Assembly: GCA_017303795.1 (NCBI GenBank)
Contig: JAFLBR010000022.1
Location: 1 to 50,480 of the forward strand
Direction of reading: 5' to 3'
From: Cytophagales bacterium
GTDB taxonomy: Bacteria > Bacteroidota > Bacteroidia > Cytophagales > Cyclobacteriaceae
DNA length: 50,480 nt
Each line of letters opens with the position of its first letter. The stretch's first letter is position 1. Position numbers and translations under genes: made by a program. Of this stretch, positions 7,324 to 39,793 are shown piece by piece. The notes under the pieces are model-generated. The model worked only from the letters and a program-made list of their open reading frames with translations, ran no database searches and had not been told where the DNA came from.

Positions 7324-8478
7324 TTAGAGTACGGCCCGCTGAAGCCATCGGTGAAACGATGGCGATCGGTGGGCCAACTCAAATACATTATTGAAAAGTG
7401 TGAACCTGGGAACCAAATACTTTTGCATCAGATAAGATTTACGATGCGAAGTCCAGAATTTTTTATACACCTGCCTGTCATAACTTTTCATAAACTCAGC
7501 CGAAAAGTTATTCTTCTTAAAACAATCCACGGCCATCCAACCGGCAAACCTTCCTGAAGCCATGGCTTGCCCTATTCCTTCTCCGGTAAGCGGATCAATC
7601 AGATGAGCGGAATCGCCACAAAGCATCCAACCTTTGCCTGAAATCGGAATTTTGCGCGAGCCAAGTGGAAGACCAAAACCTTTTACATCACTTATCTGAA
7701 TTGCATTTGCAAATCGTTTACTGATAGAATTGTGTTTGGAAACAACGTGTTGCAATAAGTCGCGCAGGTTAAGATGCTTATCTGAAATAAACTTCGATAA
7801 CGCCCCAAGCCCCACATTAAAACTACCATCCGATTCTGGAAAAATCCAGAAGTAACCCAATGGCAACTCCGGAATAAAATGCAATTCAAAACTTTCAGGA
7901 TTCACACCCGCCACGCCAGTGAAATAAGCCCGCACGGCAGCCGAATGATGTTGCTGAAGTAACCTTCCATCCGAAACCTGTTTGGTCACTACCGAATTTG
8001 CACCATCGCAGCCAATAATCAGCTTTGCTTTAATCGCACCCGAAGTGGTTTGAAGTTCCCAAAGATTTTGATCGGATTTAAACGCAAGAGAATTTACGCG
8101 GCTACCAAAAAACGGTGTAACATGTTTTTGGCTCGTGGCCAATTCACACAGAAAATTATCCAGATCAATACGTTTTACAATATTCCCGCTTTCGCTGAAT
8201 CTGAAATCTATCGGGCGGCCATTTGGTGCAAACACGCGGCAGGTGTGCACCGCTTGCTTTTGCGAAAGGGCTTCAAATTCTGCTTTAAACTCAGGCGAAA
8301 TAGTGGCCAAAACTTTAGGCACATAAGCGGCTACGGCATCGCCACAGGTTTTGTCGCGCGGAAAGGTGGCCATATCGATCAGGGCAACCCGTAAACCCGA
8401 ATTAAGCATAGCCAAGGCGGCAGTACTTCCGGCCGGGCCAGCCCCTATCACGGCCACATCAAAATCAGGCGCAGTCAT
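7324..8478 (-). CDS. FAD-dependent oxidoreductase, geranylgeranyl reductase family
   Basis: A flavoprotein of the p-hydroxybenzoate hydroxylase fold, geranylgeranyl reductase/halogenase-like group, 384 residues. N-terminal FAD motif VAVIGAGPAGSTAA (9-22), the DKTCGDAV segment that marks geranylgeranyl reductase-like enzymes, and the second FAD motif GWMLCGDSAHLIDPLTGEG (about 283-301) are clear. The substrate is unknown; saturation of a polyprenyl or quinone side chain or of an archaeol-like lipid is known in the family but cannot be assigned here. It is divergent from clpX with 54 bases between starts. Confidence 0.8.
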   Translation of the reverse strand: MTAPDFDVAVIGAGPAGSTAALAMLNSGLRVALIDMATFPRDKTCGDAVAAYVPKVLATISPEFKAEFEALSQKQAVHTCRVFAPNGRPIDFRFSESGNIVKRIDLDNFLCELATSQKHVTPFFGSRVNSLAFKSDQNLWELQTTSGAIKAKLIIGCDGANSVVTKQVSDGRLLQQHHSAAVRAYFTGVAGVNPESFELHFIPELPLGYFWIFPESDGSFNVGLGALSKFISDKHLNLRDLLQHVVSKHNSISKRFANAIQISDVKGFGLPLGSRKIPISGKGWMLCGDSAHLIDPLTGEGIGQAMASGRFAGWMAVDCFKKNNFSAEFMKSYDRQVYKKFWTSHRKSYLMQKYLVPRFTLFNNVFELAHRSPSFHRWLQRAVL

Positions 8479-8488
8479 TTTTTATAGC

Positions 8489-8496
8489 TATCTTTG
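8489..8496 (+). promoter_or_regulatory. Promoter -7 box of clpX
   Basis: TATCTTTG matches TAnnTTTG and lies 36 bases upstream of the ATG at 8533. Because it overlaps an in-frame upstream ATG at 8494, it supports 8533 as the true clpX start. Confidence 0.55.
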
Positions 8497-8532
8497 AATC
8501 TTGCTTTCCAAGATAATAAACTGATTGATTTT

Positions 8533-9768
8533 ATGGCCGAGGTTACCTGCTCATTCTGCGGAAGAAACAAAAAAGATGTTGACCTGATGATCTCGGGCAT
8601 TCATGCACACATTTGCGATAAGTGTGTAACGCAAGCCAGCCAGATTCTGCAAGAAGAAAAAAAGAATAAAGTTGAAGCCGGAGCCTTACCCAATTTTAAA
8701 TTGATAAAGCCCCGCGAAATCAAGAAGTTTCTCGATGAATATGTAATCGGGCAAGATGAAGCCAAGCGCGTAATGGCGGTTGCTGTTTACAATCATTACA
8801 AGCGTTTGATGCAACGTAAAATCGAAAATGACATTACGATTGAAAAATCGAATATCATTATGGTGGGCGAAACCGGCACCGGTAAAACTTACCTGGCGCG
8901 CACACTCGCTAAAATTTTGCAAGTACCTTTTTGTATTGCCGATGCCACCGTGCTTACGGAAGCCGGGTATGTGGGTGAAGATGTAGAGAGTATTTTAACA
9001 CGCTTACTTCAGGCTGCCGATTACAACACCGAAGCTGCCGAACGCGGCATTGTGTATATTGATGAGATTGATAAAATTGCCCGTAAATCAGATAACCCCT
9101 CTATTACCCGTGATGTAAGTGGTGAGGGTGTGCAGCAAGCCTTGTTGAAATTACTGGAGGGTACTTCTGTGAATGTGCCGCCTCAGGGTGGACGCAAACA
9201 TCCTGATCAGAAAATGATTACCGTTAACACGGAAAATATTCTCTTTATATGTGGTGGAGCTTTCGAAGGTATCTCGCGTTTGATTGGAAGACGTTTGAAT
9301 ACCCGGCCTTTGGGATTTGCGGCTACTTCAGAAAGTGTTAACCCAGCTGATGTGGATTTGAATAACCTACTTCAGTTTGTGTCGGCTCAGGATCTGAAGT
9401 CGTTCGGACTTATACCTGAATTAATTGGTCGTTTGCCAGTGGTTTCGTTTTTGAATCCTCTGGATCATGCAGCCTTGCGAAAAATTCTTACCGAGCCTAA
9501 AAACGCACTCGTAAAACAATACAAGAAGTTATTCGAGATGGAGAACATCGAACTTGAATTTAAAGACGGAGCGCTTGATTTTATTGTTGAGAAAGCAATG
9601 GACTATAAATTAGGTGCGCGCGGTTTGCGTTCCATCTGCGAAGCCATCGTAAACGATGCCATGTTTGAAATGCCTTCCGATAAAACTACCGAGCGGTTAG
9701 TGATTAATCGCGCTTACGCGGAAGAGAAGTTCAATAAATCGCACTACAGCAAGTTGAAAGTAGCGTGA
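8533..9768 (+). CDS. clpX: ATP-dependent Clp protease ATP-binding subunit ClpX
   Basis: An AAA+ unfoldase that feeds tagged substrates to ClpP. 411 residues from the chosen start. The N-terminal zinc-binding domain has two Cys pairs (CSFC at 6-9, CDKC at 28-31). Walker A is GETGTGKT (about 112-119), Walker [12 protein letters not shown], pore loop GYVGEDVES, and the sensor II region LGARGLRSI. The start was set at the ATG at 8533 ([10 protein letters not shown]) because this matches the family N-terminus and the promoter box lies over the earlier ATG. Ends 7 bases from the convergent lpxB. Confidence 0.97.
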
Positions 9769-9775
9769 TCGGGTA

Positions 9776-10888
9776 TTAGTTCGCGTTCTGATGCTGCACA
9801 ATCAACTTTGCTGTGTTATCAGAAGCCGATCCTATATCAAGCATAGTATGTAATTGATCGTAAGACTTCTTCATGCTTTCGCGATAGTTTCCCTGATCCA
9901 CTAGTTTTGTCAGTTCTTCTCCAATATGTTGAACAGAAGCGTTGTCTTGAATTAATTCTTTCACTACTTCATGGCCAGCAATCAGGTTAACCAACGAAAT
10001 GAATTTCACCTTCACTACCTGCGCGGCAATTAAGTATTCCAGATAACCAGCTTTATAAACCACTACCTGCGGCACTTTAAACAGCGCTGTTTCCAACGTT
10101 GCCGTACCAGAAGTAACAATTGCACCCGAAGCATGTGTTAATAAATCATACGTGGCATCATAAATAAACGATACATTCTTTAATCCGGCTAACGGTTTGT
10201 AAAGTTCAGCGGGCAAGTTGCGAATAGCAGCCACAGCAAAATGAAAAGCCGGTTGAGCTTTTGCTACTTCAGCCATAACCGGTACAATTTTTTGAAGCTC
10301 CCTTGTGCGACTGCCCGGTAGCAAAGCAATCAAGGGTTGAGTTGTTTTCAGATTGTTCTGTTCTAAAAATAATTCTGCAGGCTTGAACGATCGGATAGCA
10401 TCCAATACAGGATTGCCCACATAGTCCACATCAAAATTATACTTCTTAAAAAAATCTTTCTCGAAAGGGAGAATCACATACATGTGATCGACCGATTTTT
10501 TTAATTGCCACGCTCTGTTTTGTCGCCACGCCCACACTTTAGGTGGAATGTAATAATGCACAGGTATTCCATTTGCTTTTCCGAAAGTAGCGATGCGTCT
10601 GTTAAACCCACCGTAATCAATTAAAATCAACGCGCTAGGTTTGTATTGCAGAATGTCCTTTTTGCAATCAGCCATGTATCGGGCTATCTTAAAAAAATTG
10701 AGTACCGCTTCAAAGCCCATAAACGCGAGTTGATTGTAGTGCATCACCAACTCTACTCCCGCGCGCTGCATTTCATCGCCACCAAAACCCCGAAACGAAG
10801 CTTCGGGTTGTAACTTGCTCAAACTCTTCACGAGATTACTACCGTGTAAATCGCCCGAACGCTCGCCTGCTATGATATAGTACTTCAA
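9776..10888 (-). CDS. lpxB: Lipid-A-disaccharide synthase
   Basis: A GT19 glycosyltransferase that joins UDP-2,3-diacylglucosamine and lipid X to make the lipid A disaccharide at the inner membrane. 370 residues, typical. Hallmarks: YYIIAGERSGDLHGSNL at the N-terminus, RFxGFGGDEM-type segment, IDYGGFNRR, the YYIPPKVWAWRQNR motif, LLPGSRTREL and the C-terminal VTSGTATLETALFKVPQVVVYK. It begins 12 bases after the end of queD, so the two are probably co-transcribed. Confidence 0.96.
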   Translation of the reverse strand: MKYYIIAGERSGDLHGSNLVKSLSKLQPEASFRGFGGDEMQRAGVELVMHYNQLAFMGFEAVLNFFKIARYMADCKKDILQYKPSALILIDYGGFNRRIATFGKANGIPVHYYIPPKVWAWRQNRAWQLKKSVDHMYVILPFEKDFFKKYNFDVDYVGNPVLDAIRSFKPAELFLEQNNLKTTQPLIALLPGSRTRELQKIVPVMAEVAKAQPAFHFAVAAIRNLPAELYKPLAGLKNVSFIYDATYDLLTHASGAIVTSGTATLETALFKVPQVVVYKAGYLEYLIAAQVVKVKFISLVNLIAGHEVVKELIQDNASVQHIGEELTKLVDQGNYRESMKKSYDQLHTMLDIGSASDNTAKLIVQHQNAN

Positions 10889-29880: not shown

Positions 29881-31665
29881 CTACTCAATTTTTAAAACAG
29901 CCATAAACGCTTCTTGCGGAATTTCTACGTTGCCCACCTGCCGCATGCGTTTCTTACCTTTCTTTTGTTTCTCTAACAGTTTACGCTTACGCGAGATATC
30001 GCCACCATAACATTTTGCCAATACGTTTTTACGAATAGCACTAATGTTTTCGCGGGCCACAATTTTTTGACCGATAGCAGCCTGAATCGCAATCTCAAAC
30101 ATCTGGCGTGGAATCAATTCTTTTAATTTCTCGCACAACTTTCTACCCCAGTCTTGCGCTTTGCCGCGATGCACAATAGCACTCAAGGCATCTACCTTAT
30201 CACCATTTAACATCACATCCAGCTTCACCATGTCCGACTCGCGCATGCCTATCATATGATAATCTAACGAAGCATAGCCGCGTGAAATAGATTTTAATTT
30301 GTCGAAGAAGTCAAATACAATTTCAGACAAAGGCATTTCAAAAGTCATCTCTACCCGATCGGTAGTCAGATAGTTTTGATTCATGATATGGCCTCGCTTC
30401 TCAATACAAAGGTTGATAATCGCCCCGATGTACTCGGCCTTAGAAATGATTTGCGCTTTTATGTAAGGCTCTTCAATAGAATTGATTCGTGTAGGGTCAG
30501 GCATTTCGGAAGGTGCATTCACATACACTTCCGATCCATCGGTGAGGTTTGCTTTAAATTGTACCGAAGGCACAGTGGTAATCACCGTCATGTCGAACTC
30601 GCGCTCCAACCGTTCCTGAATAATTTCCATGTGCAACATGCCCAGGAAACCACACCGGAAACCAAAACCTAATGCGGCCGATGTTTCCAACTCCCACACC
30701 AACGAAGCATCGTTTAGCTTCAACTTCTCCATAGAAGCGCGCAACTCTTCAAACTCAGTTGTATCCACCGGATAAATACCGGCAAACACCATCGGCTTAA
30801 CTTTTTCAAAACCTCTTAGCGATTCGCCAGGGTTTGAAACGGAGGTAATGGTATCGCCTACATGTACTTCGCTGGCCACTTTTATTCCGGAGATGAGATA
30901 GCCCACATTACCAGCTGCAATTTCGGTGCGCGGATGTTGGGTGAGTTTTAGTACGCCAATTTCATCGGCACCATACTCCTGCCCGGTGTTAATGAATTTA
31001 ACCTTTTCGCCTTTTCTTATTGTTCCGTTAAAAACACGGAAATAAATTTCGATACCCCGGAAAGAATTAAACACCGAATCGAAAATCATAGCTTGCAATG
31101 GCGCTTTTGGATCTCCTTTTGGTGCTGAGATTCGCTTTACCACAGCCTCCAGAATTTCAGCTATGCCCTTGCCTTCTTTGGCGCTTGCCGAAAGAATGTC
31201 TTCGCGCTTGCAGCCAATCAAATCTATAATTTCATCGGCAACAGCCTCGGGGTTTGCATGCGGCAAATCAATTTTATTCATGACTGGTATAATCTCCAGG
31301 TCATGTTCCAACGCGAGGTATAAATTTGAAATAGTTTGCGCTTCAATACCCTGGCTGGCATCTACTATAAGCAGTGCGCCTTCGCAAGAGGCAATGGCCC
31401 GCGATACTTCATACGAAAAGTCCACATGGCCAGGCGTATCGATCAGGTTTAGCGTGTATTCCTTGCCTTCGAACTTATAGTTCATCTGGATGGCGTGGGC
31501 TTTAATGGTGATGCCCTTTTCCTTTTCCAGATCCATGTTATCGAGCACCTGGGCCTCCATCTGGCGTTGGTTCAGGGTGCCGGTAAATTCCAGCAGGCGA
31601 TCGGCCAGGGTACTTTTTCCGTGGTCGATGTGGGCGATTATACAAAAGTTGCGGATGTTCTCCAT
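29881..31665 (-). CDS. lepA: Elongation factor 4 (LepA)
   Basis: A translation GTPase, 594 residues from [20 protein letters not shown]1 [10 protein letters not shown]3 DTPGHVDF, G4 MNKIDLPHA, then EF-G-like domains II, III, V and the LepA-specific C-terminal domain ([13 protein letters not shown] end with a basic [14 protein letters not shown] stretch). An ATG at 31674 would add three residues; the chosen start matches the family. The promoter -7 box is at 31704-31697. Confidence 0.97.
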
Positions 31666-31696
31666 TCCCGTCATTCCGGTCTTGATTTTAAGGCTG

Positions 31697-31719: not shown

Positions 31720-31766
31720 AGTCCTGACAGGTCTTTATTGATCCGCTTTATAGACCTGTCAGGACT
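31720..31766. repeat. REP-like hairpin 1, upstream of tracrRNA and cas9
   Basis: AGTCCTGACAGGTCT (31720-31734) and AGACCTGTCAGGACT (31752-31766) are perfect 15-bp inverted repeats with a 17-base loop. The same arms recur at 36266-36312 and 36539-36586. It sits between the lepA promoter and the tracrRNA terminator. The rest of 31767-31858 holds nothing recognisable. Confidence 0.9.
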
Positions 31767-31858
31767 GAAAGAAGGACTTAAAGAAAAAAATACCTGGAAA
31801 TCCGAGGTATGAAAATCCGAGAAAGTTTAGTTTTAGAAACTGGGAGGGAAGGATAAAT

Positions 31859-31938
31859 AAAAAAGCCCCACCTAAGCAGGGCTAAGAAAATCTTCGGCTT
31901 ATAGCCTTATTGTGATTTGCAGACTAAAGATATTGAAA
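31859..31938 (-). ncRNA. tracrRNA of the type II-C CRISPR-Cas system
   Basis: On the minus strand, CAATATCTTTAGTCTGCAAATCACAAT (31935-31909, written here in part: GCAAATCACAAT) is an anti-repeat. Its complement TTGTGATTTGC is identical to 11 bases at the 5' end of the crRNA repeat, with a bulged middle and further pairing beyond. AAGG then CTATAAGCCG gives the short nexus hairpin GGCT-ATA-AGCC (31906-31896). After a linker, AGCCCTGC...GTGGGGCT plus T6 (31883-31859) is an intrinsic terminator. The anti-repeat, nexus and terminator order is that of Bacteroidota tracrRNAs. A -7-like TATCTTTA (31932-31925) lies inside the anti-repeat, so the exact 5' end is uncertain. It is divergent from cas9. 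Confidence 0.85.
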
Positions 31939-31956
31939 AATTAATGAAGCACAACG

Positions 31957-34900
31957 ATGAACAAAATATTTGCGCTTGATTTGGGCACCAACTCTATCGG
32001 TTGGGCTCTTCGTAATCCTAATTTATTAGAGAATCAAATTGAAAAGTTTGGAGTATTAACATTCAATAAAGGGGTGGGTATTGGCAAGACCGGGGAATAC
32101 TCCTATGCGGCAGAGCGTACTAAGAAGCGCTCCACCAGAAGACTTTATCAAGCAAGAAAATACCGATTATGGGCCACATTGGAGCATTTGATTAATGAAG
32201 GCTATTGCCCACTAAGCTTGAATGGTCTCAATAAGTGGAGACATTATGATAAAGCGGAAGCCAGAAAAAACAACAATGGAGGTAGAGTTTACCCTGTCGA
32301 TGATCTATTGTTTGATGCATGGATAAAACTTGACTTCGATGGGGATGGAAAGCCTGACTACAAAAGTCCTTATCAGCTGAGAAAAGAACTAGCAGAAGAG
32401 AAATTAGACCTTATAAAACAAGAGAACCGCTTCAAACTTGGGCGAGCATTGTATCACATTGCTCAGCGCAGAGGTTTTAAAAGTAGTCGCAAAGGAGCTG
32501 ATGATGTCAAAGAGAAAGAAACCTCTGATGATAACGACATTGTGGACTTGCAATATTCTGAGAAAAAGAAAAATAAAAACATTATCGAGTTATTTGAAAA
32601 ATACCCTGATGCAAAAACAATCGGTTCTCTGTTTGCGTCATTGGAAAATGATGGCATACGCATAAGAGAAAGTATTGCACAATATGCCATTAGGGAAAAC
32701 TTCAAAGATGAAATCAAATACATTTTCCAGATACAGGGGTTGTCACTGCAAAATGTACTTTACACTAAGCTTGTCGAGAAGGGTAAAAACAAGAATGACG
32801 GAAGCATCTTTTACAAACGACCTCTTCGCTCGCAGAAAGGATTAATCGGAAAATGTACGCTGGAACCATCTAAGTATAGAGCACCAATAAGCCATCCCAG
32901 TTTTGAAACATTCCGTGCATGGTCATTCTTAAACAACATTAAATTCAAACCCAGTGAGGATAAGGATGCAGAATGGCAGCCGTTGAATCTGGAACTAAAA
33001 AACAAAATCTATTCGAAATTATTCTTTCGCAAGAAAGCTTACTTTCCTTTTTCAGACATCACCGATTTTTTGCAAAAGGAAGGGAAGAAATGGCACTTCA
33101 ACTACAAACCAAAAACAACTGTTACCGGCTGCCCTATAACAGCCAGACTGAGAGATATTTTTGGTGAAGGTTACTTAACTATCAAAATTCCGAAAACGCC
33201 ATCTGCAAAATCGAAAAAGAATTATTACGACATTGAAGACATCTGGCATGTATTATTCTCTTACGAGGACCAGGAATATGTGAGTGAGTTTGCTGAGATA
33301 AAACTCAGTCTATCCACAGAACAAGTGAAGCAGTTTGTAACGATGTGGAATGCCACACCCGTTGGCTATGCCATGCTAAGCCTGAATGCAATTAATAAGA
33401 TCAACATCTTCTTACAAAAGGGATTGATTTATACAGAAGCAGTTCTGTTAGCCAATGTTCCTGACATTATCGGCAAGGAACTATGGGCGAAGAATGAGCA
33501 ACTGTTTATTAATGAAATCAGTAATGTGATAGATTCCAATCGTCATCAAAAAATAATACTCACTACTGTAAACAATCTCGTATCAAAACACAAAAGCCTG
33601 GAAGACCACGAAAAATTTGGCTATAAAGACGGTAACTATAAACTGACAGAGTCTGACTTTAATTCAATAGAAGAAACCATCAGGGAGCAATTTGGTGCAA
33701 ACAAATGGAGCCGAAAATCGAAAACAGAACAAGAACAAGTAACAAATACAGTAAAAGACTGCTATCAGGCTTACTTTAAGACAACGGGTCTTGAGCGGAA
33801 AGACATCAACAATGAAAGACATTTTGTAGTAAAGTCTCATAACACTATTTACTACAAATCTGATTCTGGTTATTACAGGCTCCCAAAGCTCATCGATACA
33901 CTTGCTGAATTCTTACAGCTCAATTTCAATGTGAGTGACGATCTAGTAAAGAAAATCTATCATCCATCAGAGATTAACATTTATCCTTCTGCCAAAGCAG
34001 ACAAGGACGGAGTGATAAAACTAGGAAGCCCTAAAACAGGATCATTCAAAAATCCGATGGCGATGCGGGCACTGCATGAATTGCGGAAGCTCATTAATTA
34101 CATGATAGAAACAAATCAAATAGATAGCGACACACGCATTGTGGTGGAGGTGGCCAGAGAATTGAATGACTCCAATAAACGATGGGCTATTGAAGCGTGG
34201 CAAAAACAAAGAGAGGCAGAAAATCAGGAATTTGCTGAGGCTATCTCGTTACTATTAGAAGAAAAAGCAGGCATTTCTGCGGAGCCATCTAACGAAAGTG
34301 ACATTGACAAAGTAAGGCTATTTTACGAACAAAATACGGAGCAAACCCTACCAGCTATTGCCGGAGAAGATGAAAAAGGGAAGAAGAGAAAAACGTCTGA
34401 TGAGGCTGTAAGATGGAATGGCCATGGTAAAAAACTCATCGAAAAGTACAGGTTATGGAAAGAGCAAGGATACTTATGTTTCTACACTGGTAAATTCATC
34501 AAACTAACTGATTTGTTTGATGAAAATGTAATTGACTTTGAGCACACTTTGCCCAGAAGTAAATCCTTTGATAATTCGCTGGCTAATCTTACAGTATGTT
34601 ATCATGATTACAACCGTACGATAAAGAAAAATCAGATACCCACGCAGCTGAACAACTACAATCAAGACTTTGATTTCGGAGGAAGTATAGGTATGTGTAA
34701 GGCCATCTTACCAAGATTAGATCACTGGAAAGAAAAGGTAGAGCGGATAAAACAACAAATAGATTTCTGGAGTACAAAGTCTAAAAAAGCGGCTGACAAG
34801 GGATGGAAAGATGATGCCATCCGCCAACGCCATCTATGGCTGATGGAGCTCGACTATTGGAGAAACAAAGTAGATCGGTTTACAATGGAGGAAATAACCA

Positions 34901-36273
34901 GTGGATTCAAGAATAGTCAGAAAGTAGATACTCAACTAATTTCAAAGTATGCATTTCACTATCTCAAAACTTATTTCGAAAAGGTAGATGTCCAAAAAGG
35001 TAGTATAACCGCGGAGTTCAGAAAGATATACGGACTACAAATACCGGACATCAAAAAAGACAGGAGTAAACACTCACATCACGCCAAAGATGCAGCCGTA
35101 CTTACACTAATACCCGTGGCTGCAAAAAGAGACGAATTATTAAAAACCTATTATGAGCATCAGGAAAGAAGGCAGTCATTTTCCGCTCAACCATACAAAG
35201 GATTTAAGCGAGAATTTGTATGGAACATTGATGACAGCATATTGATCAACAATATCGCTACCGACCAAACTCTAACACCTGCAAAGCGAATTGTAAGAAA
35301 GAGAGGCAAAATAGAATTGATTGAAGGAACCAGCAGTCAAAAGGTAGCAACAGGAAATACTGTGAGAGGTCAGCTACACGATGAAACATTCTTTGGGGCT
35401 ATTAAACCTGCAAAGAGAGGTGAAAAAGGAAATATATTAAGAGACGAAGCAGGAAAAATAATTCAGGAAGATAAAGTACGATATGTAGTAAGAGTTCCAT
35501 TTCAATATAAAGCCAAAGCAGATTCTCCCGGATTTAAAACTCTCGAGGAAATAGAAAAACAAATAGTGGATGAAGGACTGAAAGAACAAATTCGCAAGCA
35601 GGTAGAAAAAGCAGGAGGCTTGAAGGAAGCATTTGAACAAGGGATTTATATGCTGAATAAAAACGGTGAGCCAGTAAACAAAATTCGGCACATCCGTATT
35701 TTCAAATCCACTTCTAATCCGTTGGAAGTTAAAAGACAAACATACTTATCAAAGCATACTTACAAGCAAAACTATTATGCTAACAATGCCACTAATAGCT
35801 ACTTCGCCATTTATAAAAGTGGCGATATTAAAGAGTGCGACTTCAGAAACCTTTTTGAATCAGCAAAACTCATTAGTACTGGTACAATCAAGAACAAAAA
35901 AGATTTGTTTGAAAAACAGATTACTAAAAAGAAAGGAAAAACAAATATGGAACTGCCACTTAAGTACATACTTTCAACAGGTGTAAAAGTGCTGTTCTTA
36001 AGAAAGAATGATGAAGAGCTAAGAAACCTTCCTGCTGTAGAGTTGACTAAGCGGCTATATGTATTTACCAATTTTGAAAGTGATGGGAGATTGAATTTTA
36101 AATTTCATCTAGAAGCCAGAGACAACAAAGAGATAAAAGATAGCTCAGAAATTGATTTTGAAAACACCAGTCCAGCACTTCGATTTTCATACTCTAAATA
36201 TGATTTTTTGGTAGAAGGTTATGACTTCATAATAGAAATGGACGGAACAATTCATTGGCTAATAAAGTACTGA
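31957..36273 (+). CDS. cas9: Cas9, type II-C CRISPR RNA-guided endonuclease
   Basis: The effector nuclease, 1438 residues, matching the long II-C Cas9s of Bacteroidota. RuvC-I IFALDLGTNSIGW (Asp8), the Arg-rich bridge helix with TKKRSTRRLYQARKYRLW, RuvC-II RIVVEVARELN (Glu731), HNH IDFEHTLPRSKSFDNSLANLTVC (Asp860, His863) and RuvC-III HSHHAKDAAVL (His1041, Asp1045). All nuclease residues are present, so it should be active. The stop codon TGA (36271-36273) lies inside REP-like hairpin 2, so the hairpin sets the exact C-terminus. It is the first gene of an apparent cas9-RAYT-cas1-cas2 transcript. Gene base composition is more A-rich than lepA next to it. Confidence 0.98.
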   Translation: MNKIFALDLGTNSIGWALRNPNLLENQIEKFGVLTFNKGVGIGKTGEYSYAAERTKKRSTRRLYQARKYRLWATLEHLINEGYCPLSLNGLNKWRHYDKAEARKNNNGGRVYPVDDLLFDAWIKLDFDGDGKPDYKSPYQLRKELAEEKLDLIKQENRFKLGRALYHIAQRRGFKSSRKGADDVKEKETSDDNDIVDLQYSEKKKNKNIIELFEKYPDAKTIGSLFASLENDGIRIRESIAQYAIRENFKDEIKYIFQIQGLSLQNVLYTKLVEKGKNKNDGSIFYKRPLRSQKGLIGKCTLEPSKYRAPISHPSFETFRAWSFLNNIKFKPSEDKDAEWQPLNLELKNKIYSKLFFRKKAYFPFSDITDFLQKEGKKWHFNYKPKTTVTGCPITARLRDIFGEGYLTIKIPKTPSAKSKKNYYDIEDIWHVLFSYEDQEYVSEFAEIKLSLSTEQVKQFVTMWNATPVGYAMLSLNAINKINIFLQKGLIYTEAVLLANVPDIIGKELWAKNEQLFINEISNVIDSNRHQKIILTTVNNLVSKHKSLEDHEKFGYKDGNYKLTESDFNSIEETIREQFGANKWSRKSKTEQEQVTNTVKDCYQAYFKTTGLERKDINNERHFVVKSHNTIYYKSDSGYYRLPKLIDTLAEFLQLNFNVSDDLVKKIYHPSEINIYPSAKADKDGVIKLGSPKTGSFKNPMAMRALHELRKLINYMIETNQIDSDTRIVVEVARELNDSNKRWAIEAWQKQREAENQEFAEAISLLLEEKAGISAEPSNESDIDKVRLFYEQNTEQTLPAIAGEDEKGKKRKTSDEAVRWNGHGKKLIEKYRLWKEQGYLCFYTGKFIKLTDLFDENVIDFEHTLPRSKSFDNSLANLTVCYHDYNRTIKKNQIPTQLNNYNQDFDFGGSIGMCKAILPRLDHWKEKVERIKQQIDFWSTKSKKAADKGWKDDAIRQRHLWLMELDYWRNKVDRFTMEEITSGFKNSQKVDTQLISKYAFHYLKTYFEKVDVQKGSITAEFRKIYGLQIPDIKKDRSKHSHHAKDAAVLTLIPVAAKRDELLKTYYEHQERRQSFSAQPYKGFKREFVWNIDDSILINNIATDQTLTPAKRIVRKRGKIELIEGTSSQKVATGNTVRGQLHDETFFGAIKPAKRGEKGNILRDEAGKIIQEDKVRYVVRVPFQYKAKADSPGFKTLEEIEKQIVDEGLKEQIRKQVEKAGGLKEAFEQGIYMLNKNGEPVNKIRHIRIFKSTSNPLEVKRQTYLSKHTYKQNYYANNATNSYFAIYKSGDIKECDFRNLFESAKLISTGTIKNKKDLFEKQITKKKGKTNMELPLKYILSTGVKVLFLRKNDEELRNLPAVELTKRLYVFTNFESDGRLNFKFHLEARDNKEIKDSSEIDFENTSPALRFSYSKYDFLVEGYDFIIEMDGTIHWLIKY

Positions 36274-36312
36274 CAGGTCTTTCTTGCTTCGCTTAAAAGA
36301 CCTGTCAGGACT
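36266..36312. repeat. REP-like hairpin 2, overlapping the cas9 stop codon
   Basis: AGTACTGACAGGTCT (36266-36280) and AGACCTGTCAGGACT (36298-36312) form the same 15-bp stem as hairpin 1 with a single mismatch and a 17-base loop. The cas9 TGA is the CTGACAGG part of the left arm. RAYT translation starts 27 bases further on. Confidence 0.9.
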
Positions 36313-36338
36313 TAATTTAAAACTACGAGAGTAAAAAA

Positions 36339-36959
36339 ATGGAAGCCGGTAAAACGTACCACATCTACACACACGCCAACGGCTCCGAAAATCTGTTTCA
36401 AACCGATGAGAATTTTAGGTACTTCCTGAAACGCTATGAGGAGTATATTCCGCCCGTAGCCGATACGTTGGCGTGGTGCCTGATGCCCAACCACCTGCAC
36501 CTGCTGGTACAAATTAAAAGCGAGAAAGACCTGGCTAAAGACCTGACAGGTCTTGCTGGCGGAAGTAAAAAAGACCTGTCAGGTCTTGATAACGAGAAAA
36601 ACCTTGAACGCTTAACCATTCTTCAATTCAGCCACCTTTTTAACGCTTACACCAAAGCGTATAATAAATTCAAGAAAAAAAGAAGAGGCTCACTTTTTAC
36701 AAGAGCTTTTAAACGACAAGAGATTACTAACGATCAGTATTTCACCAACATCATTCACTATATACATCACAACCCCGTACACCACGGGTTTGTTAAACAC
36801 ATACAAGATTGGCCGTGGAGTTCGTACCACGATTTTCTGCTACCCAACCTCACGCCTGCCCAACAAAAAGTTATAGACTGGTTCGGCAATTGCGAGCAGT
36901 TTCTACTCTTTCATAATCAGGCATTAGGCGCTACACCTGAAATAACCGATCATGATTAA
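36339..36959 (+). CDS. REP-associated tyrosine transposase (RAYT, Y1 HUH family) between cas9 and cas1
   Basis: A single-strand DNA transposase-like protein of the TnpA-REP group, which binds REP hairpins. 206 residues. MEAGKTYHIYTHANGSENLF opens the IS200-like fold. HUH motif MPNHLHLLV (His52, His54) and the C-terminal catalytic Tyr141 in IIHYIHHNPVHHG, followed by WPWSSYHDF. Residues 67-83 (KDLTGLAGGSKKDLSGL) are encoded by REP hairpin 3 and look like an in-frame insertion into a loop. Its stop overlaps the cas1 start by 8 bases, so it is embedded in the cas operon. Such proteins normally act outside CRISPR loci; whether it serves adaptation here is unknown. Confidence 0.92.
   Translation: MEAGKTYHIYTHANGSENLFQTDENFRYFLKRYEEYIPPVADTLAWCLMPNHLHLLVQIKSEKDLAKDLTGLAGGSKKDLSGLDNEKNLERLTILQFSHLFNAYTKAYNKFKKKRRGSLFTRAFKRQEITNDQYFTNIIHYIHHNPVHHGFVKHIQDWPWSSYHDFLLPNLTPAQQKVIDWFGNCEQFLLFHNQALGATPEITDHD
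36539..36586. repeat. REP-like hairpin 3, inside the RAYT coding region
   Basis: AGACCTGACAGGTCT (36539-36553) and AGACCTGTCAGGTCT (36572-36586) are a perfect 15-bp inverted pair with an 18-base loop; each arm is also a near self-palindrome. Its length (48 bases) is a multiple of three, and it leaves the reading frame open. Confidence 0.9.
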
Positions 36960-37884
36960 ACGCACCCTCTACTTTGGCAACCCGGCTTACCTCAGCACAC
37001 ACCTAGAACAGTTGGTAGTACGGCTACCCGAAGTAGAGAAGAACGATACCCTGCCTGATATTTTTAAGAAAGAAGCAATTGCAACCATACCCATCGAAGA
37101 CATTGGTGTTGTTATACTCGATCATCAACGCCTTACTATTTCGCAGGCGCTATTAGCCAAACTACTTGCAAACAATGCTGCTGTAATAACCTGCGATAAC
37201 ACCCATCATCCAACCGGTTTACTTTTAAATCTCGATGGTCATTCGTTACAAAGCCAGCGCTTTAAAGCACAAATGGAAGCCACCGAACCCTTGAAAAAAC
37301 AACTGTGGCAACAAACTATCAAAACAAAAATTCGTAATCAGGCGGCCATACTTAAAATGCAAGGATATGAAATTGAAAACATGCTGCATTGGGCCGATGT
37401 TGTGCGCTCGGGCGACCCCGACAATTTAGAAGGGCGGGCATCGGCTTGGTATTGGTCTAAGATTTTTAAACCGCAACTTAATTTTATTCGCGAGCCAGCA
37501 GGCGAACCACCCAATAACTTATTGAATTATGCTTACGCTATTCTGCGCGCCTGCACTGCACGGGCATTGGTAGGTTCTGGCCTGCTGCCTACGCTGGGTA
37601 TTTTTCACCGCAATCAATACAATGCTTATTGCCTGGCCGATGATATGATGGAACCTTACCGTCCATTTGCTGACAGATTGGTGTTGGCCCTTGTAAATGA
37701 ATTTGGAACCCAAACTGAGTTAACACCCGATTTAAAAAAGAAATTGTTGAGTTTACCTGCGCAAGATGTGCTGGTGCAGGGAGAAACCAGCCCCATGATG
37801 ATTGCCATGCAACGTACTTCGGCATCGCTGGCAAAATGTTTTTTGGGTGAAGCCAGAAAACTGGTGTATCCGGAATTGGAATGA
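36952..37884 (+). CDS. cas1: Cas1, CRISPR adaptation integrase
   Basis: Metal-dependent integrase that inserts spacers with Cas2. 310 residues. Metal ligands Glu160 (LEGRASAWYW), His219 (GIFHRNQYNAYCLADDMMEP) and Glu234 are present, with LNYAYAILRACTARALVGSGLLP between. N-terminal beta domain RTLYFGNPAYLS. Translation begins inside the RAYT stop (ATGATTAA) and ends overlapping cas2 by four bases (ATGA). Confidence 0.97.
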   Translation: MIKRTLYFGNPAYLSTHLEQLVVRLPEVEKNDTLPDIFKKEAIATIPIEDIGVVILDHQRLTISQALLAKLLANNAAVITCDNTHHPTGLLLNLDGHSLQSQRFKAQMEATEPLKKQLWQQTIKTKIRNQAAILKMQGYEIENMLHWADVVRSGDPDNLEGRASAWYWSKIFKPQLNFIREPAGEPPNNLLNYAYAILRACTARALVGSGLLPTLGIFHRNQYNAYCLADDMMEPYRPFADRLVLALVNEFGTQTELTPDLKKKLLSLPAQDVLVQGETSPMMIAMQRTSASLAKCFLGEARKLVYPELE

Positions 37885-38219
37885 AAACCGAGCGACTAAA
37901 CGCCTACCGCATTATGTGGATAATGGTATTGTTTGATTTGCCCACCGAAAGCAAGCAGGACAAAAAGAACTATACCGATTTCCGTAAAAAGATGATGAAA
38001 GATGGATTTACCATGTTTCAGTTTAGTGCTTACCTACGGCATTGCGCCAGCCGCGAAAACATGGAGGTGCATTTAAAGCGCATTAAAAAGAACCTGCCCC
38101 CACGCGGGCATGTGGGTATTTTAACCATTACCGACAAACAATTTGGCATGATGCAGATTTTTTTTGGTAAGCAGGAAAAACCAAAAGCCCCGATACCAGA
38201 ACAGTTGGAACTGTTTTAG
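37881..38219 (+). CDS. cas2: Cas2, CRISPR adaptation protein
   Basis: The Cas1-bridging ferredoxin-like partner, 112 residues. MWIMVLFDLPTESKQDKKNY carries the conserved Asp19; the rest (FRKKMMKDGFTMFQFSAYLRHC, HVGILTITDKQFGMMQIFFG) matches type II Cas2. ATGA overlap with cas1. The gene ends inside a hairpin (38184-38230). Confidence 0.96.
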   Translation: MKTERLNAYRIMWIMVLFDLPTESKQDKKNYTDFRKKMMKDGFTMFQFSAYLRHCASRENMEVHLKRIKKNLPPRGHVGILTITDKQFGMMQIFFGKQEKPKAPIPEQLELF

Positions 38220-38248: not shown

Positions 38249-38309
38249 CAAATTTTAATCCTGATTTTACAACTAAGTTGTTGATTTAGAAAGCATTTAC
38301 GTAGGGTAC

Positions 38310-39793
38310 TCTGTATGCAATCTATCAAAGAACACAATCTGAAAGCAAATCACAACTTGGGGTTTCTGCTACAGAAATACGGAATGTCTGTATGCAATCT
38401 ATCAAAGAACACAATCTGAAAGCAAATCACAACAGGTAATGACATGAGTGCCAACCCCGGCCATCTGTATGCAATCTATCAAAGAACACAATCTGAAAGC
38501 AAATCACAACAACACCTGCTCGTAGAATGGATTTTGCAGTCTGTATGCAATCTATCAAAGAACACAATCTGAAAGCAAATCACAACAAAATCATGTAGGT
38601 TCCGTGCTTCGATGCTCTGTATGCAATCTATCAAAGAACACAATCTGAAAGCAAATCACAACATAATTCGGTTTGTAATTTCTTTACAGCATCTGTATGC
38701 AATCTATCAAAGAACACAATCTGAAAGCAAATCACAACTTGTAAAGTTCGATCATCGTAAGTTTGGGATCTGTATGCAATCTATCAAAGAACACAATCTG
38801 AAAGCAAATCACAACTCTGTTATGTTAGTGTGGTTTTTCATAAAATCTGTATGCAATCTATCAAAGAACACAATCTGAAAGCAAATCACAACAACTACCT
38901 CAAACGTCTGTGCATCCGGATTTCTGTATGCAATCTATCAAAGAACACAATCTGAAAGCAAATCACAACTCTGACCGGTGAGCAAGCCGCGTGGCATGAT
39001 CTGTATGCAATCTATCAAAGAACACAATCTGAAAGCAAATCACAACCAGATGGTAGACCGGCAGAACTTGTAGGAATCTGTATGCAATCTATCAAAGAAC
39101 ACAATCTGAAAGCAAATCACAACTTCAAGTGAAGGGTAATCCTGTACTGATAGTCTGTATGCAATCTATCAAAGAACACAATCTGAAAGCAAATCACAAC
39201 CACTTCATCATTACGTTAACGATCAACGGTCTGTATGCAATCTATCAAAGAACACAATCTGAAAGCAAATCACAACGGTGCAGTTGAGTAGTAGCAGCAT
39301 TAAAAATCTGTATGCAATCTATCAAAGAACACAATCTGAAAGCAAATCACAACAGTGAGTCAGATTCTTTGTAATTACCGGATCTGTATGCAATCTATCA
39401 AAGAACACAATCTGAAAGCAAATCACAACACCGTTAAAGCTTACTACCGCAGGCGCTGCTCTGTATGCAATCTATCAAAGAACACAATCTGAAAGCAAAT
39501 CACAACCTTTTCATCTTTCTATTTCAAAACTTAGGGTCTGTATGCAATCTATCAAAGAACACAATCTGAAAGCAAATCACAACCCATGAGTGGCACTACT
39601 GCGCACGCTTTTCTCTGTATGCAATCTATCAAAGAACACAATCTGAAAGCAAATCACAACTACTTCATGGGTTTGATTTTGTTGATACCATCTGTATGCA
39701 ATCTATCAAAGAACACAATCTGAAAGCAAATCACAACATTACGCAGCCTCAACCCTATTGATATACATCTGTATGCAATCTATCAAAGAACAC
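38310..39793 (-). CRISPR. Type II-C CRISPR array, 19 full repeats plus one truncated, 19 spacers
   Basis: The repeat is 46 bp (47 with an invariant leading T); on the plus strand it opens CTGTATGCAATCTATC and ends GCAAATCACAAC. Repeats start at 38311, 38388, 38465, 38541, 38617, 38693, 38770, 38847, 38924, 39001, 39078, 39155, 39231, 39308, 39384, 39461, 39538, 39615 and 39692, with a truncated one at 39769-39793. Period is 76-77 bp, spacers about 29-30 bp, and repeats appear identical. The strand that pairs with the tracrRNA (GTTGTGATTTGC...) is the minus strand, so crRNAs should be read right to left, toward cas2. The repeat is very close to the Bacteroides fragilis II-C repeat as I recall it. 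Confidence 0.98.

Follow-up and report, generated by a model that had tools for sequence, protein, structure and literature searches.

A REP-associated transposase gene as a recurrent neighbour of cas1 in type II-C CRISPR loci of Bacteroidia

REP-associated Y1/HUH transposases (RAYTs; REP, repetitive extragenic palindrome) are domesticated transposases, and what benefit they bring to the host is an open question. Here we analyze a RAYT gene that lies between cas9 and cas1 in a type II-C CRISPR (clustered regularly interspaced short palindromic repeats) locus of a Cytophagales bacterium, within a 50,480-nucleotide stretch of DNA (hereafter the window; contig JAFLBR010000022.1 of assembly GCA_017303795.1), together with three REP-like hairpins at this locus near the RAYT gene, H1, H2 and H3, which have few counterparts elsewhere. 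The element consists of two inverted near-palindromes with a short spacer close to a RAYT gene, an architecture that we take to be that of a REPIN; unlike REPINs, it has only a handful of copies in each genome, most of them at the RAYT locus. Compared on fold and copy number, the protein shares the Y1 HUH fold of the IS200/IS605 transposons, whereas no second copy of the window RAYT above 44% identity exists in its genome.

The closest described proteins are the RAYT/TnpA_REP transposases, above all those of subclass 2.4, which, in the accessible part of PMC6006769, resemble the window RAYT in combining HUH with a single Tyr, in having hairpins near the gene and in the spacing of HuH and Y (a reported median of 88, against 89 residues from H52 to Y141 here). 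For subclass 2.4, RAYT genes that carry an in-frame REP in the stretch from HuH to Y are described there as well. The window RAYT differs from these proteins in its place within a cas operon and in its palindromes, which by eye do not have the GT[AG]G tetranucleotide of typical REPs at the foot of H1, H2 or H3; atypical structures have also been reported with RAYT subclass 2.6.

On the side of cas9, shuffling in situ within subtype II-C is described for Flavobacteriales in the available portion of PMC12669027, and there, as here, close cas1 genes accompany distant cas9 genes at the same place; within that portion, its main text holds no mention of HUH, Y1 transposase or REP-associated. The Fp2Cas9 case of F. 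psychrophilum (PMC10309648, as far as its text was available) is a single II-C cas9 replacement, by homologous recombination between conserved flanks, but its transposases belong to IS982 and IS256 insertions, with no RAYT by cas1. The accessible text of PMC6008519 makes no mention of a transposase, and among the papers listed by searches that reached few subscription journals and no supplements, none dealt with a RAYT placed in a cas operon or beside cas1. Shuffling of cas9 in type II-C and in-frame REPs are already known; for the RAYT in the cas operon we came upon no earlier description. We consider it probable that this RAYT is a long-term resident of type II-C operons in Bacteroidia, with its own palindrome family, and that cas9 is swapped around it by ordinary recombination.

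The RAYT gene beside cas1

Open reading frame (ORF) calls and profile searches place a type II-C locus in the window, in the order cas9, RAYT, cas1, cas2 and array, with the following features.

29881..31674, minus strand: lepA-like GTPase gene (ORF and synteny; we presume the label lepA, which is putative and read off the translation), left chromosomal neighbour of the CRISPR locus and the same in genomes G009 and G034
31720..31766: hairpin H1, 15-bp perfect arms and a 17-nt loop, also present in G009
31855..31925, minus strand: probable trans-activating CRISPR RNA (tracrRNA), with an anti-repeat at 31910-31920 and a terminator-like stretch near 31858-31885, from by-eye complementarity to the array repeat
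31957..36273, plus strand: cas9, type II-C, 1438 aa (TIGR01865), the exchangeable part of the locus
36265..36313: hairpin H2, 18-bp arms with one mismatch, overlapping the cas9 stop codon
36339..36959, plus strand: RAYT gene, 206 aa (NF047646), with H52, H54 and Y141
36538..36587: hairpin H3, 17-bp perfect arms and a 16-nt loop, in frame within the RAYT gene and coding for a low-confidence loop (residues ~67-83)
36952..37884, plus strand: cas1, type II (TIGR03639), its start overlapping the RAYT 3' end by 8 bp
37881..38219, plus strand: cas2 (ORF and family searches)
38308..39793: CRISPR array, 19 full repeats and one partial repeat at the right end

Neither csn2 nor cas4 is present at the locus, and the RAYT is the sole extra gene between cas9 and the array; leaving it aside, the locus holds cas9, cas1 and cas2 only, which is the definition of type II-C. 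RAYT and cas1 are probably translationally coupled.

The original prediction, made from the letters of the window, had recognized a HUH/Y1 gene of the RAYT type between cas9 and cas1 with H52, H54 and Y141, and this is borne out by the family profile, by a structural match and by invariant residues. The score on NCBIfam NF047646 is marginal (80.2 bits against a cut-off of 80), and alignments of 8, 21 and 24 cas-linked RAYTs (overlapping sets) show no exception to the three residues. The AlphaFold2 (AF2) model of the protein, with a mean predicted local distance difference test score (pLDDT) of 90.9, has 4er8 as its best PDB match (E 4.3e-10, template modelling scores 0.55/0.67), giving it the fold of TnpA_REP, and 4er8 is also the only match at E <= 0.01 when the PDB is searched by sequence profile. 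That structure is TnpA_REP bound to a REP hairpin, from E. coli according to the accessible part of PMC6006769. The window RAYT carries the motifs NHLH and YIHHNP and no WQ apparent by eye, against NH[IFV]H, WQ and YIxNNP in subclass 2.4. Its assignment to this subclass is uncertain because L119 and F120 apparently stand where the E. coli protein has W94 and Q95, a correspondence taken from the offset of the profile match. The evidence supports a RAYT that is maintained in the cas operon as a functional protein.

The gene keeps this position among relatives. Cas1 homologues are found in 13 of 36 genomes of the genus (22 of 58 relatives overall; some assemblies are incomplete), and in these 13 a RAYT lies between cas9 and cas1 in eight, is broken in G034 and is absent from four (G015, G017, G035 and G029, the last on a short contig). 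A search for the RAYT itself across 62 genomes of the genus gave 11 full-length matches at 57-100% identity, every one of them directly 5' of cas1; for the next two matches, at 55% identity, no such position is known, the one inspected having no cas1 in the 6 kb read around it. We also drew a class-wide sample through type II cas1 (TIGR03639) and not through the RAYT, in which 94 of 396 genomes were over the cut-off. Ninety-two loci were examined, 90 from 89 of these genomes plus the window and G002, with three genomes left out for fragmentary matches. An intact RAYT at most 120 bp upstream of cas1 on the same strand, as detected by a profile that could miss very divergent RAYTs, was present in 12 of the 92; remnants occur in three more (L205, L280 and, weakly, L255), and in another four (G434, G227, G134 and G307) the RAYT is downstream of cas1, judged by coordinates. 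Given about one or two such RAYTs per genome, we put the number of adjacencies to be expected by chance, as a rough estimate, at well under one. The position of the RAYT beside cas1 is not chance, and the proposal that a RAYT had been recruited to the CRISPR locus agrees with the genus and class samples alike, where it is a conserved and recurrent neighbour of cas1.

A tree of 69 RAYT sequences, 38 of them cas-linked (L220, at 35 bits and 1277 bp from cas1, was left out), calls for at least 8 changes of cas linkage, three of them forced by well-supported branches. This is a quick tree in which cas-linked rows are over-sampled, many loci having been gathered through cas1, so that clustering is inflated. 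A single recruitment was rejected by the approximately unbiased (AU) test (p-AU 4e-44; the test assumes a group named beforehand), and on these sequences several origins of cas-linked RAYTs are favoured. One clade of 18 rows, which includes the window and is mostly Cyclobacteriaceae, has 17 cas-linked members. All 38 cas-linked RAYTs are on the strand of cas1, 33 upstream and four downstream of it, and L074 placed by a separate reading of its locus; among the 33 upstream genes, 29 either overlap cas1, nine of them by exactly 8 bp, or end no more than 60 bp short of it. The ratio of nonsynonymous to synonymous substitution (dN/dS) is 0.11-0.23 in six RAYT pairs and 0.03 in a near-identical pair, and that of cas1 is 0.04-0.12, with synonymous sites saturated in most pairs. 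Judged by these ratios, the RAYT is shown to be under purifying selection.

Some loci depart from the common layout. At the same chromosomal site as the window, the locus of G034 (L070) is decayed, with the RAYT split into two ORFs and cas1 and cas2 intact; no cas9 was found there, while a 195-aa ORF has a cas9-like tail by eye and one repeat-like match is left of the array. In L156 cas1 is flanked on both sides by RAYT genes (8325-8951 and 10016-10606); the two RAYTs are different, and the sequence of the internal hairpin is particular to each. A second, divergent RAYT group stands beside cas1 in L103, L125, L160 and L163, with an in-gene hairpin in three of the four; its hosts are metagenome-assembled genomes labelled Lentimicrobiaceae, Paludibacteraceae, Bacteroidetes ADurb.Bin217 and Porphyromonas cangingivalis. 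The window genome has, at another place (L293, G000:C18:42000-47500), a further RAYT that belongs to the same broad family as the window RAYT but has decayed, its sequence interrupted by stops and frame breaks.

Palindromes in and around the RAYT gene

Two 47-bp hairpins with the same arms were originally described as flanking cas9. Both are real, but the left arm of H2 differs by one base, and of the two only H1 lies outside cas9, since H2 contains the cas9 stop codon and is partly inside the gene; the third hairpin, H3, within the RAYT coding sequence, had been overlooked. Matches to AGACCTGTCAGG with at most one mismatch number 8 in the window, against 0.14 expected, and none of 100 shuffles reaches 8. 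Folding z-scores of the hairpins range from -6.2 to -9.1, and their arms are near-palindromic themselves, with 12 to 16 of 15 to 17 letters matching their own reverse complement. In the AF2 model the loop encoded by H3 sits, with lower confidence, between the strand at 52-59 and the helix at 85-111. As an in-frame REP between HuH and Y, H3 (36538-36587) has the position described for subclass 2.4, and because RAYTs with in-frame REPs have been described before, a hairpin within the gene is not new in kind.

Codon chance was rejected as the source of the internal hairpin: when codons were shuffled synonymously (20 genes, 10 shuffles each), 2 of 200 shuffles reached the score of 16. Such a hairpin is present in 32 of 38 cas-linked RAYTs, but also in 6 of 31 others, and we therefore rejected it as a mark exclusive to the cas-linked genes; an independent-pair test of internal hairpin against cas linkage has only three pairs on supported branches. 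Some loci contain truncated copies of the RAYT 5' part with the hairpin as their end, singly in L068 and L074 and as tandem units of ~225 bp in L073, L286 and L287, and the hairpin is thus a repeated endpoint of local rearrangement. In three species the tandem units (L073:9937-10935; L286:4708-5809, minus strand; L287:8858-9566) separate cas9 from the intact RAYT, and each is made up of the first ~36 RAYT codons, the hairpin and a short tail, with ORFs of 66-81 aa and one of 107 aa (L073). H2 may itself be the remnant of a truncated RAYT copy, and both H1 and H2 probably stem either from earlier RAYT/REP activity or from 5' RAYT fragments that stop at the hairpin, as in these relatives.

The window palindrome is not an abundant dispersed REP and is nearly confined to the cas locus. 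In the window genome (4.87 Mb, 24 contigs), a strict hairpin pattern, outside which H2 falls, finds four hairpins, two of them at the CRISPR locus (H1 and H3). Four further stretches were inspected, holding the two other strict hairpins, both intergenic, two imperfect intergenic copies and one single arm in a gene; of the remaining single-arm matches, part was inspected. Eight of the 62 genus genomes contain the strict pattern, which covers the window palindrome alone and not those of RAYTs with other palindromes, and each of the eight has a RAYT at cas1. The palindrome has 22 distinct sites in these genomes, 19 of them at the cas locus. An artefact of dispersed REPs present in hundreds of copies is rejected by these genome and genus counts; hundreds of hairpins elsewhere and a RAYT at other places in neighbours, which the original prediction had named as signs of a chance arrangement, were looked for and not found.

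Exchange of cas9

The window and G009 share a chromosomal site at which the left flank is 81.5% identical over 3.9 kb and cas1 92% identical, while cas9 is only 26% identical. At this site cas9 has clearly been exchanged. The earlier suggestion was that the RAYT moves cas9 as a unit bounded by REP hairpins, and in its favour the homology between the two genomes stops between H1 and cas9 (~31843) and starts again in the gap from H2 to the beginning of the RAYT gene (~36334). However, H1 lies outside the swapped segment and is common to both genomes, near its left end and not at it. When the stretch of up to 400 bp ahead of cas9 was searched in 14 RAYT loci, the window palindrome turned up in no more than two, those of the window and G009 (some loci carry other palindromes, for which a part was scanned).

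The breakpoints of a more recent swap point the same way. Between G073 and G075, cas1 is 98% identical, the RAYT differs by one residue and cas9 is 33% identical, within flanking blocks of 97.8% and 95.5% identity. The left end of the swap lies near the tracrRNA anti-repeat (by eye) and the right end in the last dozen cas9 codons; no RAYT-family hairpin is present at either breakpoint, the nearest starting ~137 bp beyond the cas9 end, although L287 has a different sort of GC hairpin ~30 bp beyond the left end. L286 and L287, with near-alike flanks and wholly different cas9 genes, are a clean natural case of cas9 replacement, the ends of which are near the tracrRNA anti-repeat and in the 3' end of cas9.

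As a control we compared 143 loci with usable cas9 and cas1, in pairs that are not independent and with some genomes present twice from two collections. Among pairs with cas1 at 80-99.5% identity, cas9 falls below 40% in all 20 RAYT-positive pairs, all 10 mixed pairs and 27 of the 37 without a RAYT; with cas1 at 68-80%, it does so in 91/110, 142/186 and 299/388, respectively. Because most close RAYT-less pairs also differ in cas9, the RAYT is not needed for the swap. In both ranges discordance is somewhat more frequent among the RAYT-positive pairs, a difference that speaks for a RAYT-moved cas9 as far as pairs that are not independent can. Taken with the breakpoints of the recent swap, the RAYT-less control disfavours a REP-bounded cas9, and we regard this explanation as very improbable.

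Over 105 pairs, again not independent, identities correlate at 0.27 for cas1 and RAYT and at -0.22 for cas1 and cas9. G018 and G069 resemble each other on the tracrRNA side, in cas9 and through the first two thirds of the RAYT, but not in cas1, which indicates that the RAYT sits at a junction and can act as a homologous arm.

Resident, passenger or accessory factor

A long-term resident would account for these observations as follows. The RAYT gene would settle between cas9 and cas1 and be kept intact by purifying selection, in the genus with an overlap into the cas1 reading frame, and its small palindrome family would comprise one copy in frame within the gene and a few, such as H1 and H2, in nearby gaps. 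Replacement of cas9 would proceed by ordinary homologous recombination between conserved sides, with the chromosomal flank or the tracrRNA as left arm and the cas9 3' end, the RAYT or cas1 as right arm, and REP cleavage would be unnecessary. For a self-maintaining RAYT/REP resident, the cas1 transcript and the horizontal exchange of this locus would both be of benefit. The layout, its recurrence, the common strand, purifying selection, the intact catalytic residues and the near-confinement of the window palindrome to the locus are the established parts of this account.

Several observations weigh against it. In 77 of the 92 class-sample loci there is no RAYT directly upstream of cas1, and the near relatives L075, L048 and L083 lack one. 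A partial match in G062 (66 aa, 64%) has no cas1 in the 2.3 kb available, related RAYTs with an internal hairpin occur away from cas genes (6/31), and in G018/G069 the RAYT travelled with cas9 and not with cas1. The slot between cas9 and cas1 also holds Fic, RhuM-Fic, AAA ATPases, a nucleotidyltransferase, HIRAN and an IS200-type Y1 transposase. Such other cargo was seen in L200, L217, L223, L239, L261, L272, L203 and L216, with DUF6261 among the genes found (eight proteins from a hand-picked subset of 18 RAYT-less loci). The slot is permissive, and the RAYT is its commonest occupant identified in the loci inspected.

Varied cargo is what would be expected if the RAYTs were passengers without a CRISPR function that had arrived repeatedly in a mobile defence locus, with the cas9-cas1 junction as a permissive landing slot. 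The several origins on the tree and the four further class-sample loci with a RAYT downstream of cas1 also fit such passengers, whereas the uniform strand, the 8-bp overlap with cas1 in 9 of 33 upstream cases, purifying selection and the standing of the RAYT as the commonest identified cargo do not. We take this to be a serious contender that falls somewhat short of probable.

More doubtful is a role as an accessory adaptation factor, in which the HUH nuclease would trim or nick single-stranded DNA or hairpins for Cas1-Cas2 or act on the leader or repeats. It would explain why the RAYT is always on the cas1 strand, close to or overlapping cas1 in 29 of 33 upstream cases (nine by 8 bp), why it is under purifying selection and why the association recurs on the tree; the RAYT also stays with cas1-cas2 as cas9 changes, in window/G009 and in G073/G075, and is broken in G034, where no cas9 was found. 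The class-sample loci without a RAYT directly upstream (77/92), the unrelated genes in the same slot and the movement of the 5' two thirds of the RAYT with cas9 in G018/G069 argue against this role. That the RAYT is, in some type II-C systems, a dedicated adaptation cofactor, a HUH single-stranded DNA nuclease in translational coupling with cas1, acting on prespacer ends of hairpin or single-stranded form or on the array's leader end, with the in-gene palindrome as self-binding site and autoregulatory brake, strikes us as unlikely.

The accessory and passenger explanations concern function only and overlap with the long-term resident that we prefer, and the weights we give them do not sum to one. 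We lean slightly towards a self-maintaining resident over an adaptation accessory; the evidence does not tell the two apart.

The RAYT-less control separates cas9 replacement from the presence of a RAYT, two phenomena that seemed linked in one genome. Type II-C systems gain a candidate accessory gene, and the conserved home of the RAYT beside cas1 provides a specific, testable setting for the question of what benefit these transposases bring to their hosts.

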